DNA of 21,995 bases. Origin: a virus. Numbering within the stretch: the first letter of the stretch is position 1; every line of letters begins with the position of its first letter. The notes under the pieces were generated by a model, which saw only the letters and a program-made list of their open reading frames with translations, was not told the origin of the DNA and made no database searches. This document shows positions 978-14,525 of the stretch, in pieces. The stretch covers positions 1 to 21,995 of IMG/VR virus record IMGVR_UViG_3300009537_000201, one strand, 5' to 3'. A program made the position numbers and the translations under genes.

Positions 978-1559
978 ATGCAGCCATTTACGCTTTCAGG
1001 GACTTCCGTTGCCGCGAGCCTCACCGGCTTTGCGTCGAACGTCACGGGTGCCACGTTCACCCTGACGGCCAACGACGCCAACGACGACCTCGCCCACAAG
1101 GTCACGGTCAAGAACGATTCCGCGACGGATCATTCCGGGAAAACAGTCGCACTCGTCGGGACCGACGCAGACGGGCGACCGCAGACCGAGACGCTGACTG
1201 GGCCTGGGACGAGCGCGACTGTCACGTCGTCAAAGTATTTCCTGACGCTCACTTCCGCGACCCCAAGCGCGACCATCGGATCGGACACCTTCGACATTGG
1301 TTGGGCGGCTGATGCCGTGACGGCATCCTTCTACCCTGACAAGCACCGCAACACGTTCTCTGTCGGGTTCGAGTGTTCCATCTCTGGAAGCCCTACCTAC
1401 ACGGTTCAACACGCGATGGCCGGAACGACTTGGTACAACCACTCGACGGTCGCCGCAAAGACCGTTGCTGCCGCCGGAAGCTACACGACACCCGTGAGCG
1501 CGATCCGGCTTTTGTTCACCGCCGCAGGAACCGTGACCGTCGAAGGTATCCAAGCCTGA
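978..1559 (+). CDS. Beta-rich phage structural protein, function unknown
   Basis: A 193-aa protein with a strong Shine-Dalgarno (AGGAG, 964-968). It is rich in Thr, Ser, Ala and Gly with short alternating hydrophobic stretches, as in beta-sandwich virion proteins. The first half contains segments such as HKVTVKNDSATDHSGKTVAL and GTDADGRPQTETLTGPG, which resemble small structural proteins of tailed phages. The second half (from about residue 125, ECSISGSPTYTVQHAM) looks like a separate beta domain ending in TVTVEGIQA. There is no signal peptide or membrane segment. It stands between terL and the fibre genes, so a fibre-attachment or virion-surface role is possible, but this is inference. A head decoration protein is the main alternative. 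Confidence 0.7.
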   Translation: MQPFTLSGTSVAASLTGFASNVTGATFTLTANDANDDLAHKVTVKNDSATDHSGKTVALVGTDADGRPQTETLTGPGTSATVTSSKYFLTLTSATPSATIGSDTFDIGWAADAVTASFYPDKHRNTFSVGFECSISGSPTYTVQHAMAGTTWYNHSTVAAKTVAAAGSYTTPVSAIRLLFTAAGTVTVEGIQA

Positions 1560-1595
1560 TAACAAGTTCCGCTCAAGCGGACTGGAGAATGAAAA

Positions 1596-2837
1596 TTGGC
1601 GTTCGCTGAATACTACGATTCAACGGGGGCACCGGGGAGCGGGAGCGCGGGGTCGAGTTCTACCATTCGGGCCGAGTTCGACGCGATCCAGGATGCTTTC
1701 GACAAACTGCCGGACCTTTCCGGCAACGCGAGTCTGCCGGTCTTTGTCAATTCCGGCGAGACCGCGCTTGAGGCGGTTTCCGCATCATCCGCCCGCACAA
1801 ACCTCGGTCTTGTCATCGGCACGAACGTACAGGCGTATGACGCGCAACTGACCGATCTCGCCGGGCTGTCGTATTCCGGCAACGCGCTTAAAGTGGTGCG
1901 CGTCAACTCGGGGGAAACGTCCTTTGAATTGGCCGCAGTCACGGGAGATGCCGCGACCGCAAGCCCGTTGAGTCAGTTCGCGGCGACGACTTCCGCCCAA
2001 CTGGCCGGGGTCATTTCAGACGAGACGGGTTCCGGCGCGCTGGTATTCGCCACAAGCCCAACCCTAGTCACCCCGGCCCTCGGGACGCCCTCCAGCGTAA
2101 CGCTCTCTAACGCAACGGGCCTTCCTGTATCAACGGGGATTACAGGACTGGGCACAAATGTTGCGACGTTCCTCGCAACCCCGTCGAGCGCCAACCTTGC
2201 GGCTGCGCTGACGGATGAGACAGGAAGCGGTGCGGCGGTATTCGCCACAAGCCCGACGCTAACAACTCCGACTATCGGGGTGGCGACGGCTACCTCGGTC
2301 AACAAAGTGGCGATTACCGCGCCTGCGACCTCCGCGACACTGACCTTGGCCGATGGGTCCACGCTTGCGCTTTCAGGGGCGTATAGCTGCACCCTTACCG
2401 TTTCCGGCGCGACGACCCTGACATTGCCGACCTCAGGAACGCTGGCGGTGTTGGGAGCCAATACGTTCACCGGGGCGCAGGCCCTCGGGAACAACAACCT
2501 GCTTTCGATCAAGCAGGCGACGTACAACTCAGAGATCGACGACGGCAACAGTTCCACCGCCGACACGATTGACTGGTCAGCCGGGCATCGGCACAAGTCA
2601 ACTCTAACCGGGAATTGCACGTACACGTTCATCGCCCCAAGTGGGGTGTGTTCGCTTGTGCTGAAGGTCGTCCAGGACGGGACCGGGAGCCGCACCGTTT
2701 CATGGCCTGCGTCGGTCAAGTGGGGGAGCGGGACACCACCTACGCTTACGACCACGGCCGGGGCCACTGACATCGTCGGGCTTTACTACGACGGCACGAA
2801 CTACTACGGTGCCGTCATGGTGGCTGACGCATCGTGA
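1596..2837 (+). CDS. Tail fibre protein, module A (TTG start)
   Basis: A 413-aa fibre-like protein. The start is the TTG at 1596, with GGAG at 1584-1587. The nearby ATG at 1589 opens only a 6-codon frame, and the TTG start aligns exactly with the N-terminus of the fibre at 3636: about 46 of the first 71 residues are identical without gaps (AEYYDST at 4-10, RAEF at 25-28, TALEAVSA at 56-63). This N-terminus probably attaches the fibre to the particle. Next comes VQAYDAQLTDLAGL, then two FATSPTL repeats 65 residues apart with ALGTPSS and TGLP signatures, as in many phage tail fibres. The C-terminal 105 residues (near GVCSLVLKVVQDGTGSRTV and GLYYDGTNYYG) form a beta-rich tip domain of a type I recognise from other phage fibres. 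It overlaps the next gene by 4 bases. Confidence 0.8.
   Translation: MAFAEYYDSTGAPGSGSAGSSSTIRAEFDAIQDAFDKLPDLSGNASLPVFVNSGETALEAVSASSARTNLGLVIGTNVQAYDAQLTDLAGLSYSGNALKVVRVNSGETSFELAAVTGDAATASPLSQFAATTSAQLAGVISDETGSGALVFATSPTLVTPALGTPSSVTLSNATGLPVSTGITGLGTNVATFLATPSSANLAAALTDETGSGAAVFATSPTLTTPTIGVATATSVNKVAITAPATSATLTLADGSTLALSGAYSCTLTVSGATTLTLPTSGTLAVLGANTFTGAQALGNNNLLSIKQATYNSEIDDGNSSTADTIDWSAGHRHKSTLTGNCTYTFIAPSGVCSLVLKVVQDGTGSRTVSWPASVKWGSGTPPTLTTTAGATDIVGLYYDGTNYYGAVMVADAS
1989..2075 (+). repeat. Fibre repeat, copy 1 (residues 132-160)
   Basis: This encodes a 29-residue unit centred on DETGSGALVFATSPTL. A second copy starts 195 bases downstream (2184). Protein similarity is much higher than nucleotide identity, so this is an old duplication under protein-level constraint, typical of trimeric fibre shafts. 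Confidence 0.7.
2184..2270 (+). repeat. Fibre repeat, copy 2 (residues 197-225)
   Basis: Second copy of the 29-residue unit, centred on DETGSGAAVFATSPTL. It aligns without gaps to the unit starting at 1989. Confidence 0.7.
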
Positions 2838-3634
2838 GCATTACCAGCGGCGGATCAATCGGTTCCGGCGGGTTCACAAGCACATCGAGCGGGACGACGC
2901 TCACGATTACCGGAGTCACCGCTTCGGTGAATGATGAAATCATTCTCCCGATTGCCGCTGACAACTACCACACGACATTCGGGTATCTGCACGACATCGC
3001 AAGCGTTACCGATTCGGCGGGGAATTCGTGGGCGATCCTAAACGACAACACGAATGACGCGGCTTACACATACAGCCCGACCAGCACGCAGAACGACGGC
3101 GCGACCATCGCGTTGTTCCACACAAAGGTCACAAGCGCCCTGTCATCCGGGACGATCACGATTACTTTAGGCCACGCCAAGACCGCGAAGGCCGCGTCCC
3201 CGTGGAAGTTCACGGTCGGGGCGGAGATGAGGTTGGCTGTCATGTCCAGCAAAACTGTTGGTGCAGGGAAAACATTTGATAGCGTCAGCAGATACACGGC
3301 TTGGCCGCTTTCTTCGCTATCAATATCTGGGTTACAGTCCAATGAATATCTGTTCTTCCGGGCAACTGGTGGGGAAATTGCCACATCACCTGGCAGCGTT
3401 ACTTATACCAGTGGGTTTTCAAATATCAACGAAAGAATTGCAAATACCGGATCGTCTCCCACATCAATGATCTGCGGTGCGGAGTTCAAAGTAGAGACGA
3501 CCACAAGCAAGACCAGTTCGCCAGCTATTGATATGTACCCAGGTACTAGAGATTTTTCCAGCATTATGATCGCCCTCAAGGAAGTCCCCATCGCATCCGC
3601 CGCAGGCGGCATGATGATGGCGGTGGGATTCTAA
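2834..3634 (+). CDS. Beta-rich fibre-associated protein, module A partner (GTG start)
   Basis: A 266-aa protein starting with GTG at 2834, which overlaps the upstream TGA by 4 bases, so translation is probably coupled. It is Ser/Thr/Gly-rich and predicted to be all beta. Segments such as [14 protein letters not shown], then [25 protein letters not shown] and [11 protein letters not shown] near the end, match in order SDTQGNTWTKAKEW, GYTKL, SEYKIETSAGSTSDPG and ASVFVAFYG in the gene at 5701. The two therefore look like distant paralogues. It ends in a Gly/Met-rich tail ([11 protein letters not shown]). The second half (from about 3240) is visibly less GC-rich than the first. Its place after each fibre gene suggests a fibre-tip, adhesin or fibre-chaperone role; I cannot decide which. 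Confidence 0.65.
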
Positions 3635-3635
3635 A

Positions 3636-5699
3636 ATGTCGAGCGCCGAATACTACGACTCCACGAACGCCCCGGCGCAGAACTCGGTCGGCTCAAGCGC
3701 CACGATGCGTGCCGAGTTCAACGCGGTCGAGGCCGGGTTCGGGAAACTTCCCGACATTGCCGGGAACGCCAACAAGGCGATATTCGTAAACGCCGGGTCA
3801 ACCGCCCTTGAGGCGGTGTCGGCGGCGACGGCAAGGACGAACCTTGGCGTCAGCACCGCGCTCTACACCGACTACGGTATGTCGTTCACATACAGCACGA
3901 CAACCACGATGGCCGATCCGGGCTCAGGCGTGATCCGGCTGGACGACGCTGATCTAACGCTTGTCACCGCAGCGGCGATTGACGATCTTTCCGCGAACAC
4001 CGGGAACCCGGATGTCTCTACATGGATACTATCGTGGGACGATAGTACGAGTACTGTTCGCGGCACGCTGTTCCTGCGAAAAGTATCCGCGATGGAGAAC
4101 TTCGCCGTGTACAGCATCACGGGTGCGTCCACCGATAACTCCGGGTGGACGCAGCTTGCTCTCACATACGTCACACACAGCGGGTCATTCTCGAACTCAG
4201 ACCCGTTGATCGTGGCGTTTTCGAGGGCCGGCGACCTTGGCGCGACAGGACCGACAGGGGCGACCGGGGCTGATTCAACGGTTCCTGGCCCGACAGGACC
4301 AACCGGCGTGACTGGCGCGACCGGGGATACTGGCCCGACAGGGCCGACCGGGGATACTGGCCCGACAGGGCCGACCGGGGCAGATGGAGATATTGTTGAT
4401 GGCGCAACGCTCGCAACCGGCCTGACGTTCCCGAATACCGGGCTGCACCTGCTGGACACGAACGCCAGCCACGATCTGATTATCGCGCCGGGGTCGGACC
4501 TCACGGCAGATCATACCCTGACGATTACGACCGGGGATGCAGACCGGACGCTAACTCTCAGCGGTGACGCAACCGTAAGCGGGACGAATACGGGCGACCA
4601 AACCTCTGTTTCAGGGAACGCCGGGACTGTTACGGTAGCGGATGCCGGCGGCGATACGACCACATGGGTTTTGCTAGGCACAAGCCAAACCGGGAGCCTG
4701 TCTCCGGCGACGGACGCAGGGCTTACTTACGATGCCGACACCAACGCGCTCACGGCGACAACCTTTGTTGGGGCGTTGACTGGAACGGCGAGCGGCAATC
4801 TTGTATCTGGCGGCGCACTCGGCACCCCGTCCAGCGGTACGCTTACGAATTGTTCTGGATTGCCAGCAGCGGGCGTTTCAGGGACCGCGCTTGTCTCAGC
4901 AGACATTGGGTCATCTGTTCAAGCCTACGATGCAGGACTGGCTTATCTGGATGGCCTGAATTTCACAGACGAGTCCACGTTCAAGGCCGGTGTCAATCTT
5001 GAAATCGGCACGGATGTTCAAGCCCACGACGCCGAACTCGCCGCCATTGCGGGCCTGACTTCAGCCGCCGACAAGGTTCCGTACTTTACAGGTTCCGGCA
5101 CCGCCGCAGTTGCGGACCTGACTGCCACTGGCCGCTCCATCATTGACGACACCACGATTGCGGCTGTGCGCACGACCATCGGCGTTGGCATGACAGATTT
5201 CATGGTGCTGTCAGCCGCAGGCGGGAACCCGACTACGACCAGTGGTTGCGCTGCGGTTGCTCAAGCCGAAACCACCACGAACAAGATCAATACATGGGTT
5301 CTGGACTTCGACGCCGCGACTCAAGAGAACGCATTTTGGGACGTTCGGATGCCGTCGAATTGGGACGCCTCCACTGTCACGGCTCAGTTCATCTGGACCG
5401 CCACCAACACCGGCAACGTGGTGTGGGGCATTCAGGCTGTTGGCTTTTCGGACGATGACGCGCTGGACACCGCCCACGGAACCGCGCAGGAAGTGACGGA
5501 CGGCGTTACAGTTGCAAACGACGTGATGATTTCCGCCGCGACCTCCGCTCTGACTATCGGCAACAGTCCCGCCGCAGGCGACTACACCGTGTTCCGGGTG
5601 TACCGAAAAGCCGCTGATGGGGCCGATACCTGTACTGTGGACGCAAGACTGCTCGCGGTTCGCATCGCCTACACCGTGACCAAGCTGGGGCAGGTGTAA
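3636..5699 (+). CDS. Tail fibre protein with collagen-like region, module B
   Basis: A 687-aa protein that starts one base after the previous stop. Its N-terminus is the paralogue of the fibre at 1596 ([27 protein letters not shown]). The order is: attachment domain (about 1-72); a beta domain with EYAVYSITG-like features to about 198; a collagen-like stretch of 16 Gly-X-Y triplets, mostly GPT, GAT and GDT, broken once by STVP (199-252); a beta region with [15 protein letters not shown]; two VQAYDA/VQAHDA fibre repeats; and a C-terminal beta domain (about 528-687) that contains [20 protein letters not shown]. Collagen-like shafts are known in phage fibres and form trimeric stalks. It is probably a receptor-binding or stalk protein. 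There are no membrane segments or signal peptide. Confidence 0.8.
4230..4391 (+). repeat. Collagen-like Gly-X-Thr coding repeat
   Basis: This encodes residues 199-252 of the module B fibre: five triplets ([15 protein letters not shown]), a STVP break, then eleven more triplets dominated by GPT. Within it a 27-base unit is repeated exactly in tandem (4323-4349 and 4350-4376), which points to a recent slippage or unequal-crossover expansion. Thr fills most Y positions, as in many bacterial and phage collagens that lack hydroxyproline. Confidence 0.88.
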
Positions 5700-5700
5700 G

Positions 5701-6426
5701 ATGCCTTTCTCTTTAGACAGCGGCAACGTAGGAACTACATCCCAATCTTCGGGTCCGTACACAAGTTCCACAGCGACTGTTACTAGTATCTGTGCAGTTG
5801 GAAAGTTGCTGACGATGGAGGTACGGACGAATGATTCCGGGAGCGATGGCGAAACGTCGAACCATACTTCGGCATCAGATACACAAGGTAATACATGGAC
5901 GAAAGCAAAAGAGTGGTCAAATAGTAGTTCCACCACAACCTCACTCTGGTACTGCGTTGTCGCTACTGGACTCACTACGTCCGACACCGTAACTGTCAAT
6001 TTTTCGTCGGCCAATTATACGATACAAAGATTGAACTTATGGTCGAATCCTTACAGCACTATCGGGGTAGATGGTTCAACAGGCGATGCGACCGACGCGG
6101 CGGCTGGTCCGGTTACGCTGGTTTTATCGTCTTTAACCTCAAGAGAACATATCTATTTTCGTCTCGATGGCGTAGATAACGGTGCTGCCCGAGTTGATTG
6201 GGCCGCAAGCACCGGATACACAAAGTTATCTACCATTGGCGGCGTTTTTCGTGGCATAGGATCAGAATACAAGATAGAAACCAGCGCAGGTTCGACTAGC
6301 GATCCGGGGGATTCGACTTCCGAAGGTAATCGGGCGTCAGTATTTGTAGCGTTCTACGGAACCAGCGGAGCAACTCACCAACGCTCCCCATCCGGCGGCG
6401 TAGCTTACGGAGGTCATTCGTACTAA
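5701..6426 (+). CDS. Beta-rich fibre-associated protein, module B partner
   Basis: A 241-aa protein with its ATG one base after the previous stop. It is Ser/Thr-rich, with SDTQGNTWTKAKEW near residue 60, SREHIYFRLDGV near 155 and SEYKIETSAGSTSDPG near 198. These match the order of similar segments in the gene at 2834, so it is probably a distant paralogue. It ends in GGVAYGGHSY. Its base composition is clearly lower in GC than its neighbours: rough counts give 38-50% per 60 bases, against about 60% in the fibre upstream. That suggests separate acquisition or rapid exchange. Likely a fibre-tip or host-contact protein by position; no catalytic motif is visible. Confidence 0.65.
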   Translation: MPFSLDSGNVGTTSQSSGPYTSSTATVTSICAVGKLLTMEVRTNDSGSDGETSNHTSASDTQGNTWTKAKEWSNSSSTTTSLWYCVVATGLTTSDTVTVNFSSANYTIQRLNLWSNPYSTIGVDGSTGDATDAAAGPVTLVLSSLTSREHIYFRLDGVDNGAARVDWAASTGYTKLSTIGGVFRGIGSEYKIETSAGSTSDPGDSTSEGNRASVFVAFYGTSGATHQRSPSGGVAYGGHSY

Positions 6427-6893
6427 TGAAATACGCGCTCATCAAAGACGATCAGGTCACGGAATATCGTGAGTATCCTACTCAGGTCGAATCGAAGCAT
6501 ATCAACGGCAAGCCGATGCTGCGGCCTGTCCGGTATGTCTCCGCCGTCGGGTATGACTCCAGAATCCACACCAAGGCCGTGACGACCACGATCACGGATA
6601 CCGAAGTGGTGCAGGAGGAAGCGTTGACGGAGCGCCCGCTTGCCGATGTTCAGGCCGAATCCATGCGGCGTGTCAGGGACGAAGCGCGGGACGCGATTGA
6701 AAGCGCCTACCCTGACTGGTACCAGCGCAACATCGGGATGGGTCTTGAGACGGACGAAAGCGCAGCGCAGCGTTGCCGGGACTTCATTGCCGCCGTGCGT
6801 ATTGCGAGCAATGCGGCGGAAGATGCCATTGGCGCGGCAACCACTGTCACAGATGTTGTCGCGGTCACGCCGAACTGGCCGGTTCCGCAATGA
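6426..6893 (+). CDS. Small phage protein following the fibre genes, possible fibre-assembly factor
   Basis: A 155-aa protein whose ATG shares one base with the upstream TAA (TAATG), so it is probably translated by re-initiation. The N-terminus (MKYALIKDDQVTEYREYP) is short and beta-like. The C-terminal half is helical (SMRRVRDEARDAIESAYPDW, CRDFIAAVRIASNAAEDAI). A beta head with a charged helical tail, placed directly after fibre genes, is the layout of tail-fibre assembly chaperones, but I see no diagnostic motif, so that role is an inference. It overlaps the next gene by 4 bases. Confidence 0.6.
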   Translation: MKYALIKDDQVTEYREYPTQVESKHINGKPMLRPVRYVSAVGYDSRIHTKAVTTTITDTEVVQEEALTERPLADVQAESMRRVRDEARDAIESAYPDWYQRNIGMGLETDESAAQRCRDFIAAVRIASNAAEDAIGAATTVTDVVAVTPNWPVPQ

Positions 6894-7063
6894 GCAGGTT
6901 TGACCCCGAGAAGTACCAGCAGCGCAAGACCAATATCGCGGCGCTCCGCGCGAAGTCAGCGCCGACGACGCTTAATGAAATCATCGAGCACGTCATCCTG
7001 ATCGAGAAGGTGTTGGGGCTTGACCCGTCCGCATTGTCAGCGCGGAAGAACAAGAACAAATAG
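6890..7063 (+). CDS. Small charged helical protein (57 aa)
   Basis: The start is the ATG at 6890, within an ATGA overlap with the upstream stop, giving a 57-aa protein; the frame is open further upstream but the coupled start fits the local pattern. It begins MSRFDPEKYQQRKTNIAALR, has a hydrophobic helix (IIEHVILIEKVLGL) and ends in a Lys/Asn-rich tail (ARKNKNK). I do not recognise the family. It lies just before the portal gene and could be a minor connector or non-virion assembly factor; nothing in the sequence settles this. Confidence 0.55.
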   Translation: MSRFDPEKYQQRKTNIAALRAKSAPTTLNEIIEHVILIEKVLGLDPSALSARKNKNK

Positions 7064-7070
7064 GGGCTTA

Positions 7071-9305
7071 ATGGAAACCGAACAGATCGAGAACGAAAGT
7101 CCGCAGGCAGATTTCGAGAAGCTGGATTCCCTCGGCCTTTCGCTTGCCAAGAGCCGGTCAGAATCAATTTCGGCAAGGCGATCTTCCGGCATCGAGGACC
7201 GCTGGACCAAGGCCGAGGAACAGTACGAGGGCATTGACGACGCCAACCGTTCGCAGGGCGCATCCATTGATTCTCGCGGCGCGTTCAGTTCCAGTTCATC
7301 CGGAACCAAGGCTACCCGGTCAACGGCCTATGTGAACATCACCCGCCCGTACACGGACGCTGCATCGGCCCGCGTGGCGGATATGTTGCTGCCGACCGAC
7401 GAGCGTAACTTTGGCGTTGATTGCACTCCGGTCCCCACAAGCCTGATCGACATGGCGAAGGGGAAGTTCACCAAGGGCCAGCAGGGACAGATCGAGGCGG
7501 CGACCGCAGGGAACCCCGGACTGATGGCGCAGACCATCAACCAGGCGAAGGAAGAAGCCGACAATCTTATCAAGGAAATGCGCGCCAAGGCCAAACGCGC
7601 CGAGGACCGCATCGAGGACTGGTTCATCGAGGGGCAGTATTACAGTGTTGTGCGCGAGGTCATCGAGGACTCCGCGAAATACGGTGTTGGCATTCTCAAG
7701 GGGCCGTATCCTGTCAAGCGCAAGACGAGCGCCATTTTTGAAAAAGACGGCCAGATTCAGATTGTCATGGAAGAAAAGATCGTCCCCGAGTCAAAGCGCG
7801 TCAACCCGTGGAACTTCTTCCCCGACCCGGCCTGCGGTGGCGACATTCGCAAGGGCGGGCATATCTGGGAGCGGGACACCATCACGCGAAAGGGATTGCG
7901 CGACCTGAAGGGCGTGGACGGGTACATCGACGAGCAGATCGACGCGGTGCTGGCCGAGGGGCCGCAAGCCGCTGAAGCGGAAGTCAGGACCGAGTTCTCC
8001 GAGAACACCGGCACCGACAAGCCGTATGAAATCTGGTATTACCAGGGGTGCCTCGAAGCCGAGGACATGCGGGCCGCCGGGTGCGAGTGCGATGACGGCG
8101 ATTACATCGACGCCTTCATCACGCTTGTCAACAACCGCGTGATCCGCGCCGTTACGAACCCGCTCGATACCGGCGAGTTCATCTACGACACGATGCCGTG
8201 GCAGCGCAGGTCCGGCAGTTGGGACGGCATCGGGATTCCAGAGCAGGGCGAGACGCCGCAGCGCATCGTGAATGCCGGTGTTCGCAACATGATGGACAAC
8301 GCCGGCATCGCGGCGGGCGGGATTTTCCTATACCGCGACGGGTCTATCGAGCCTGTGGACGGGAAGTGGGAACTCGGGCCGCGCAAGTTCTTCCGCATCG
8401 GCGAGGATGCGGAGGTCGTCAACACCGAGCAGATTTTCAAATACATCGAAATCCCCATCCGCCAGCAGGAATTGGGACAGATCATCCAGTTCGCGCTCAA
8501 GGTCATGGAGGACGTAACCGGCCTCCCCATGATTATGCAGGGCCAGCAGGGCAAAGCCCCGGAGACGGTCGGCGGGATGCAGTTGCTCAACGCCAACGCA
8601 TCCACCGTGTTACGGCGCATCGCCCGCATATTCGATGACCGCGTGACCGAGCCGCACGTCAGGCGTTACTACGCATGGCTGCTTCAGTACGGCGAGGACG
8701 AAAAAGAGAAGGGCGACTTCCAGATTTTCGCAAGGGGTTCGACCGCGCTTGTCGAGCGCGACCAGCAGACGCAATTCCTGATGCAGTCCGTCCCGCTCGT
8801 CCTGCAAGCCCCGCCGAATGTGACCGGGATCGACACGAAGAAATTCCTGAAGGCTGTTTACAAGAATCAGAAGATGGACACCGAGGAATTCTTCCTGACG
8901 CCGGAGGAACTGACGAAGATCGAACAGACGATGCAGAAAAGCCAGCAGCAAAAACCGGATCAGGGCACACAGATCGCCCAGGTCAAGGCGCAAACGCAGG
9001 TCGCGTTGCAGGACAAGGAACAGAAGTTCGAGGCGCAGGAAAACCAGAAGGACCGCGAAACTGAACTGGCTATCGCAAGGCTCGAACACCAGTTCAACAC
9101 CATGAAACTCAACGGCGACCGCCAATCGAACATCGAGGAACTAAAGGCGAAGCTGGCTGAGATCACGATGGAACTTCGCAGTTCACAGGCTGAAACGGCG
9201 GCGAAACTCAAGACCCAGCGCGATCTGGGTTCGGTGCGCCCCGTGACCAAGCCGCCGACTGAGCCTCCGGGCCGCGCCCCGGCAGGGATGGCGTACCAGA
9301 GATGA
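7071..9305 (+). CDS. Portal (head-tail connector) protein
   Basis: The portal forms the dodecameric ring at one capsid vertex through which DNA enters and leaves. I chose the ATG at 7071 (METEQIENES, 744 aa), which has GGGG at 7063-7066 just upstream; the frame extends to an ATG at 7020, but that lies inside the preceding gene. The length matches podovirus portals (P22 about 725, N4 about 763). Typical segments are VNPWNFFPDPACGG in the first half and MEDVTGLPMIMQGQQG from residue 479, followed by VGGMQLLNANASTVLRRIAR. The C-terminus (about 621-715) is Gln/Lys/Glu-rich and predicted to be coiled coil, like an extended portal barrel. It overlaps the next gene by ATGA. Confidence 0.88.
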   Translation: METEQIENESPQADFEKLDSLGLSLAKSRSESISARRSSGIEDRWTKAEEQYEGIDDANRSQGASIDSRGAFSSSSSGTKATRSTAYVNITRPYTDAASARVADMLLPTDERNFGVDCTPVPTSLIDMAKGKFTKGQQGQIEAATAGNPGLMAQTINQAKEEADNLIKEMRAKAKRAEDRIEDWFIEGQYYSVVREVIEDSAKYGVGILKGPYPVKRKTSAIFEKDGQIQIVMEEKIVPESKRVNPWNFFPDPACGGDIRKGGHIWERDTITRKGLRDLKGVDGYIDEQIDAVLAEGPQAAEAEVRTEFSENTGTDKPYEIWYYQGCLEAEDMRAAGCECDDGDYIDAFITLVNNRVIRAVTNPLDTGEFIYDTMPWQRRSGSWDGIGIPEQGETPQRIVNAGVRNMMDNAGIAAGGIFLYRDGSIEPVDGKWELGPRKFFRIGEDAEVVNTEQIFKYIEIPIRQQELGQIIQFALKVMEDVTGLPMIMQGQQGKAPETVGGMQLLNANASTVLRRIARIFDDRVTEPHVRRYYAWLLQYGEDEKEKGDFQIFARGSTALVERDQQTQFLMQSVPLVLQAPPNVTGIDTKKFLKAVYKNQKMDTEEFFLTPEELTKIEQTMQKSQQQKPDQGTQIAQVKAQTQVALQDKEQKFEAQENQKDRETELAIARLEHQFNTMKLNGDRQSNIEELKAKLAEITMELRSSQAETAAKLKTQRDLGSVRPVTKPPTEPPGRAPAGMAYQR

Positions 9306-13329: not shown

Positions 13330-13839
13330 ATGGCAAGCCTGTTGCTTGGGTGCGGGAACGCCCGTGCCAAGAAGCTGTATCTGACGGACCAAAAGGAATG
13401 GTCCGGTGAACTCACGACGCTCGACATGAACCCGGATTGCGGGGCGGATGTCGTGTGGGATTTGGAGCGCCGCCCGCTTCCGTTTGCCGATGAGGCATTC
13501 GACGAGATCGCCGCATACGATGTGCTGGAACACATCGGGAGGCAAGGCGACTGGATGGGATGGTTTGACGAAATGGACGAGTATTGGCGCATCCTGAAAC
13601 CGGGCGGCATGTTCGGCGCTGTCCTTCCGATCAACACCGATGCGCTGGTGGACCCAGGGCACACGCGGTTCTTTCACCCGATGTGGTTCTACTTCCTCAA
13701 CAAGAAGTTTTACGAGGACGCGCTGGGCAAGAACCTTCAGGTGACGGACTACCGCTGGTACATCAAGAACTGGTGGGAAGTGGTGGATGTCGTCTACATG
13801 GAAAACCATCACTTCGGCGTGATCCTGAAGAAAGTATGA
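13330..13839 (+). CDS. SAM-dependent methyltransferase (class I, Methyltransf_11-like)
   Basis: A 169-aa protein. LLLGCGN (residues 4-10) is the glycine-rich SAM-binding motif I. LDMNP (31-35) ends with the motif II region. ADVVWDLERRPLPFADEAFD (39-58) and YDVLEHI (63-69) match the typical class I pattern in which the last motif lies near the catalytic site. LKPGG (89-93) is the usual post-motif loop, and DPGHTRFFHP (108-117) is often seen in phage and glycan-cluster members. At 169 aa it is a minimal domain without a target-recognition domain, so a DNA base methyltransferase is unlikely. It overlaps the glycosyltransferase gene by ATGA, which suggests a shared substrate such as a glycan or virion protein. 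The true substrate is unknown. Confidence 0.82.
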   Translation: MASLLLGCGNARAKKLYLTDQKEWSGELTTLDMNPDCGADVVWDLERRPLPFADEAFDEIAAYDVLEHIGRQGDWMGWFDEMDEYWRILKPGGMFGAVLPINTDALVDPGHTRFFHPMWFYFLNKKFYEDALGKNLQVTDYRWYIKNWWEVVDVVYMENHHFGVILKKV

Positions 13840-14525
13840 GCAGCGTCGATGTCGGCATGGACGGCCTTCGCGTTATGGTCGGCATACCGGCCGGGCGCGA
13901 TTTCCACCCGTATGTTGTCAAGTCCCTGATCGGGACGATAGAGGCGTGCCACAGACTTAATATCCATTGCGGGATAGGGATGGTTGCCAATTCCGCCGTC
14001 ATCCAGTGGGCGCGTGACGAAGTGCTTGACCAATTCATCGGGTCGGACGCAAACCGCCTGTTCTGGATCGACTCCGACATGGTGTGGGAACCGGCCCAGT
14101 TCATACGGTTGCTGGCGATGTCCAAACTGCGGGATGTGGTGTGCGCCACTTACCCGGCGAAGATCGACTCGCAGCCGACATACTTCGTCAAGTACGACAA
14201 AGCGAAAGGACTTGTCTATGACGAATACGGCCTCGTCGAGATAGAAGGGGTCGGCCTCGGGTTCACTGTTATGACACGCGAAGTGGCCGAAGCCGTGACG
14301 GCCGCGAGCGATAAAATCATGGATGAAGTCACCGGGAAAGAGATGGCGTCCGTATTCACCGTGGGCTCCATCAACGGGAATCGGCGCGGCGAGGACATGG
14401 CGTTTTTCAATATGATCCGCGAGTGCGGGTTCAAGGTTCACCTTGACCCGTCCATCGACCTAGGCCATATCGGCACCAAGGTCTATCGCGGGAAATTCAC
14501 AGATGCTTTCAAAACCGCCGGATGA
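13836..14525 (+). CDS. Glycosyltransferase-like protein (GT-A fold)
   Basis: I chose the ATG at 13836 (229 aa), which overlaps the methyltransferase stop by ATGA. The frame is open further upstream but would lie inside the methyltransferase gene. LFWIDSDMVW (75-84) holds a DXD-type motif (D79-S-D81), the metal and nucleotide-sugar site of GT-A enzymes. RGEDMAFFNMIRECGFKVHL (184-203), then DLGHIG (208-213), is the ED...H acceptor-side pattern of this fold. There is no signal peptide or membrane segment, so it acts in the cytosol. It would transfer a sugar to an unknown acceptor; with its methyltransferase neighbour it may decorate a virion protein or a host glycan. Confidence 0.78.
   Translation: MSSVDVGMDGLRVMVGIPAGRDFHPYVVKSLIGTIEACHRLNIHCGIGMVANSAVIQWARDEVLDQFIGSDANRLFWIDSDMVWEPAQFIRLLAMSKLRDVVCATYPAKIDSQPTYFVKYDKAKGLVYDEYGLVEIEGVGLGFTVMTREVAEAVTAASDKIMDEVTGKEMASVFTVGSINGNRRGEDMAFFNMIRECGFKVHLDPSIDLGHIGTKVYRGKFTDAFKTAG

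Follow-up and report, generated by a model that had tools for sequence, protein, structure and literature searches.

A fibre-partner gene of atypical codon composition in a tailed phage, probably gained by exchange between phages

Why should one gene in a tailed phage genome, lying directly behind a tail fibre gene, be written in codons so unlike those of its neighbours, and is this a property of the protein, of the gene family or of the gene's history? The window analysed here is the whole of the 21,995-base IMG/VR virus record IMGVR_UViG_3300009537_000201, from a tailed phage in which genes for terminase, portal and major capsid protein are recognised, and the genes and AT-rich segments described from g2 to the portal all lie on its plus strand. 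The gene in question, parB (5701..6426), codes for a 241-residue all-beta tail protein, the partner of fibre B, and is AT-rich along its full length. Its ATG lies one base past the fibB stop (stop at 5699, start at 5701) and its stop overlaps the ATG of the following gene at 6426; the reading frame is genuine, with its coordinates correctly given. The initial annotation had reported a drop in GC and frequent A- or T-ending codons in this gene, and both observations hold. The GC content of parB is 50.0% against 58.4% for the window, and none of the 19,819 windows of 726 bases that do not overlap parB reaches 50.0%, the minimum being 52.3%. At third codon positions parB has a GC fraction (GC3) of 0.459, the lowest of 23 genes, the other 22 falling at 0.633–0.828 (46% versus about 73% for the remaining genes), and the lowest 240-codon stretch elsewhere, among 6,107 stretches with parA and parB left out, is at 0.60. 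The annotated figure of about 38–50% GC per 60-base block is borne out as a lowered mean (50% over the 12 blocks of parB, 58.7% over 353 blocks outside it) but not as a range, which runs noisily from 37% to 65%, and single blocks prove little because 10.8% of those outside parB are also at or below 50%. Segmentation of the genes from the terminase to the portal resulted in two AT-rich blocks, and one of these (5728..6482, GC3 0.44) very nearly coincides with parB.

The protein is rich in serine, threonine and glycine, and so the drop might be due solely to an amino-acid content heavy in Ser, Thr and Asn. This was controlled for by resampling codons from the other window genes for parB's own amino acids, by which a GC3 of 0.72 is expected and 0.44 observed (z = −9.6), with a z of −11.9 for the codon log-likelihood; overall the amino-acid-controlled deficit is −0.26 to −0.28 (z −9.0 to −9.6). 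Fourfold sites give 0.47 in parB versus 0.62–0.81 in seven neighbouring genes, and fibA, Ser/Thr-rich too, stands at z −0.4. The deviation thus persists among synonymous codons, where the initial annotation had allowed that it might vanish, and amino-acid content as the sole cause is refuted and keeps practically no weight. Among 585 homology-supported genes in 70 related contigs the two bottom ranks are taken by parB and the family gene of contig L002, the nearest relative, at about −0.26 each. That second gene bears also on the reading that a foreign fragment was joined into the contig during assembly, a concern raised by the window being a single IMG/VR virus record: the same anomaly recurs in an independent contig, and the AT-rich block corresponds to about one ORF, set close behind fibB and overlapping its downstream neighbour, and we regard an assembly chimera as very improbable.

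The surroundings of parB consist of two modules, fibA-parA and fibB-parB, placed between g2 (978..1559) and the portal gene (7071..9305), which has a typical composition and forms the right-hand edge of the fibre/partner slot. The fibres fibA (1596..2837) and fibB (3636..5699) begin with a common 72-residue anchor of 64% identity (1596–1811 and 3636–3851), giving two fibres with one attachment end, and fibB carries a collagen-like Gly-X-Y repeat at 4285–4380 coded by short tandem repeats. The composition of fibB breaks at codon 104 (p 0.003), with a GC3 of 0.83 in the anchor up to this codon and 0.65 after it; a general GC drop past the fibre anchor is not claimed, being seen in 16 of 22 fibres (Wilcoxon p 0.068).

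The cargo of this slot differs among relatives, as the following arrangements show. In L078 the homologue of g2 abuts the portal, so the fibre/partner block (1560–7070) is lacking at that place, and in MW202426 the portal directly adjoins the terminase. Ahead of its portal L002 carries parA together with a short fibre, and no parB, whilst L009 has there a gene of normal GC matching a virion-protein PHROG. The order in L010 is fibre, a Laminin_G_3 lectin-like gene, one further gene and portal; the lectin-like gene (L010:1189-1908) is AT-rich (−0.29) and occupies parB's position after the fibre. In L112, which comes from the same metagenome as L002, a fibre-type ORF is followed by a partner of the parA/parB family, stop and start overlapping, and the similarity of that ORF to fibB is confined to one short repeat (E 0.019). 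The L112 ORF is 1,915 residues long (L112:203-6702), and in its record no homologue of the window's capsid or portal was detected. Elsewhere in the window, adjacent genes at 13330–14525 are kept in L002, one coding for a Methyltransf_11 methyltransferase and the next having no Pfam match.

The other partner gene, parA (2834..3634), codes for a 266-residue protein of parB's family and is a mosaic in its codon composition. Its GC3 is 0.76 in the first 138 codons and 0.46 from codon 139, a break with a sharp left edge whose likelihood ratio of 25.0 was equalled in none of 300 permutations; by the same test neither parB nor the L002 copy has an internal break. Identity to the L002 protein is 61% ahead of codon 139 and 41% beyond. 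The AT-rich patch itself (3251..3556, GC3 0.39), which the initial annotation had missed, covers codons 139–241, and it is therefore most of the C-terminal half that is unusual and not the last strand and tail. In the structural model a strand at 132–141 is followed by a low-confidence loop, near the break, and the patch stops at the start of the last predicted strand. Of the arguments against a requirement for AT-rich codons across the gene, this contrast within one gene is the strongest.

Together parA and parB belong to one all-beta phage family, of which 24 copies are found in 23 virus records. An alignment of parB, parA and the L002 protein (a parA orthologue at 50% identity) was used in tblastn and gave 15 loci in viral contigs, of which L093, L097 and L098, as embedded or partial matches, were omitted from the alignment; a second alignment gave 12 loci, nine of them new and three (L104, L109, L113) re-finds of L086, L089 and L092. 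All rows of the 24-row alignment are similar in sequence over the domain, including a 10-residue motif region, and the best segments of parB to family loci have 29–38% identity. No match to parB was found in Pfam or PHROGs up to E 1, nor any to 15 family members in either collection, and NCBIfam gave for the 24 members one stray match, to a radical SAM enzyme. No phage record was found by tblastn with parB, parA, L095 and L086; in cellular genomes two scans yielded 125 and 71 pattern matches, of which none could be confirmed as a homologue. By sequence parB has no match in the PDB and the family profile one, at E 0.83, and a literature search with terms not specific to the family turned up no paper on it.

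AlphaFold2 models of parB and parA, made from input alignments with rows in common, are confident and all-beta (pLDDT 86.4 and 82.6, pTM 0.85 each), and these models, with their shared top matches in BFVD (48 matches for parB and 35 for parA at E≤1e-3), agree on a single predicted fold. The parB model has two beta-sandwich-like halves, a division suggested also by alignments to solved structures, which split near residue 117 and among which no match stands out. The best Foldseek match in the PDB was a chain of a phage PR772 structure (E 0.007, TM-score 0.24), and the best by VIA-align a GH86 agarase at Z 6.2 (4.2 Å over 133 residues), in a range common to models that have no clear match. Relatives of the parB domain are also found fused in long structural-type proteins (L086, L089, L092, L099).

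Since both partners are of one family and follow fibres whose anchors are alike, parB could be a recent duplicate of parA that has since drifted. The identity between them is however only about 20–28%, and in the family tree parA is joined to the L002 protein at 100/100, in agreement with the major capsid protein (MCP) and portal, whereas parB stands elsewhere on a long branch with no settled position; recent duplication is accordingly quite improbable. In the other carriers of the family, matches to the window's core genes are rare, with portal in 0 of 21, MCP in 1 of 21 (weak) and the terminase gene TerL in 1 of 21, an absence that is suggestive only, because the carrier contigs are mostly fragments. 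No TerL was seen in the L002 contig.

A further possibility is that selection on codons is specific to the gene, the family being AT-rich in every genome for reasons of folding (through slow translation), mRNA structure or low expression, with no transfer at all. In favour, three members (parB, the L002 copy and L090) show a strong AT bias, and the L002 copy keeps a GC3 of about 0.5 despite wide synonymous divergence from the window, the third-position identity at conserved residues being 0.45–0.61 over parA, portal, MCP, g12, g18 and g14. When each copy is measured against the GC3 of its own contig, the deviations run from −0.27 to +0.19 in 22 of the 24 copies; L094 and L100, with too few context codons, were scored separately at −0.07 and −0.27. 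The family mean is −0.049 (shift p 0.011), and a mild intrinsic AT preference of the family is possible. That low GC3 characterises the family as a whole was rejected, in that residuals run in both directions, and the explanation by codon selection is already weakened by the six of 22 copies that are GC-richer than their own genome, two of them by +0.16 and +0.19, as it is by the first 138 codons of parA. We hold it to be unlikely, if not negligibly so. The spread is what sets the family apart, with a standard deviation of 0.115 versus 0.061 in 470 homology-supported genes of similar length (Levene p 1.4e-5) and with 7 of 22 copies versus 18 of 470 control genes deviating by more than 0.12 in either direction; when the window and L002 are left out the excess is weaker, at 4 of 19 (p 0.008).

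From the same controls a built-in positive control for the composition test emerged. Genes for HNH and endonuclease VII proteins are often mobile, and among the nine lowest control rows four scanned proteins match these families, the endonuclease-type genes L007:9602, L005:606, L066:2909 and L063:6114 being among the strongest low-GC3 outliers. Another of the lowest rows, L008:8070, has the same first 100 residues as one endonuclease-type protein.

Overall the best explanation is that parB is a separately made, adhesin-like tip protein of fibre B, gained in an exchange with a phage whose GC content is lower, and this we consider probable. Exchange is supported because the deviation of parB survives the amino-acid control, because the composition of the family varies in both directions, because the carriers are mostly without this phage's core genes and because parA has an internal composition break. 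Counted against it are the slightly negative family mean, the weaker excess of spread once the window and L002 are removed, the long branch of parB and the want of a donor or close homologue of parB, as well as a search around parB in which no flanking repeats marking a recombination site were found. The initial annotation had proposed a recent acquisition or exchange, and it is the exchange that is upheld; "recent" is not, no donor or close relative of parB having been found and composition by itself giving no date.

How such an exchange might work can be outlined. Recombination inside a co-infected cell would replace the distal part of the fibre together with its partner gene as a cassette, whole as for parB or in part as for the C-terminal half of parA, whilst the fibre anchors would remain with the virion, and a new receptor could in this way be reached with the tail untouched. 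The parB protein would sit at the fibre tip and bind a cell-surface receptor, probably a sugar. That it is a host-contact protein, as the initial annotation had supposed, is consistent with its position, its predicted fold and the lectin domain that L010 has in this slot, and on the same grounds (position, fold class and lectin-type gene) a tip adhesin is its likeliest function; the role of a chaperone appears less likely, given that relatives occur as fusions with long virion-type proteins. It may further be that in this phage group adhesins are exchanged in the slot that separates terminase from portal, where tip proteins of the unnamed family, each made from its own gene and built of beta-sandwiches, or other lectin-like proteins are swapped entire or in part behind a constant anchor and GC3 delimits the receptor swaps, a generalisation that we put forward tentatively and think on balance doubtful.

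Phages are well known to exchange host-contact genes, and parB adds one more case to an established principle. The gain lies in a tail-domain family that apparently has no name, present in 23 virus records, and, in parA, a clear case of composition separating typical from atypical parts within one gene. If receptor binding proves true, the family would become a source of further adhesins to be recognised in uncultured phages and matched to their fibres.

Several known systems invite comparison. The predicted fold of parA and parB is matched in BFVD by mycobacteriophage minor tail proteins and by uncharacterised proteins of tailed phages, for example X2KSL9 of Mycobacterium phage Hawkeye and A0A0F6SJ03 of Sinorhizobium phage phiN3, at only 9–22% identity among the matches listed; the genomes of phiN3 and S-CBWM1, searched with a profile, gave no family match. 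The gp38 adhesin and Tfa proteins are likewise encoded directly after a fibre gene and are of similar size at about 20–28 kDa (for parB by residue count), but parB is without a PHROG or Pfam match, a lack still compatible with a protein of gp38 type, and a polyglycine architecture is not evident in it (PMC7289586). In Alteromonas phages A5 and V22 a fibre and a downstream chaperone form shared host-recognition modules (PMC10579305). The second gene there is a fibre chaperone, in contrast to the predicted all-beta parB, whose relatives are also domains of long virion-type proteins. The likeness lies in the arrangement, for in both settings a fibre and a small following gene recur in distantly related phages, and the exchange of modules is proposed (PMC10579305).
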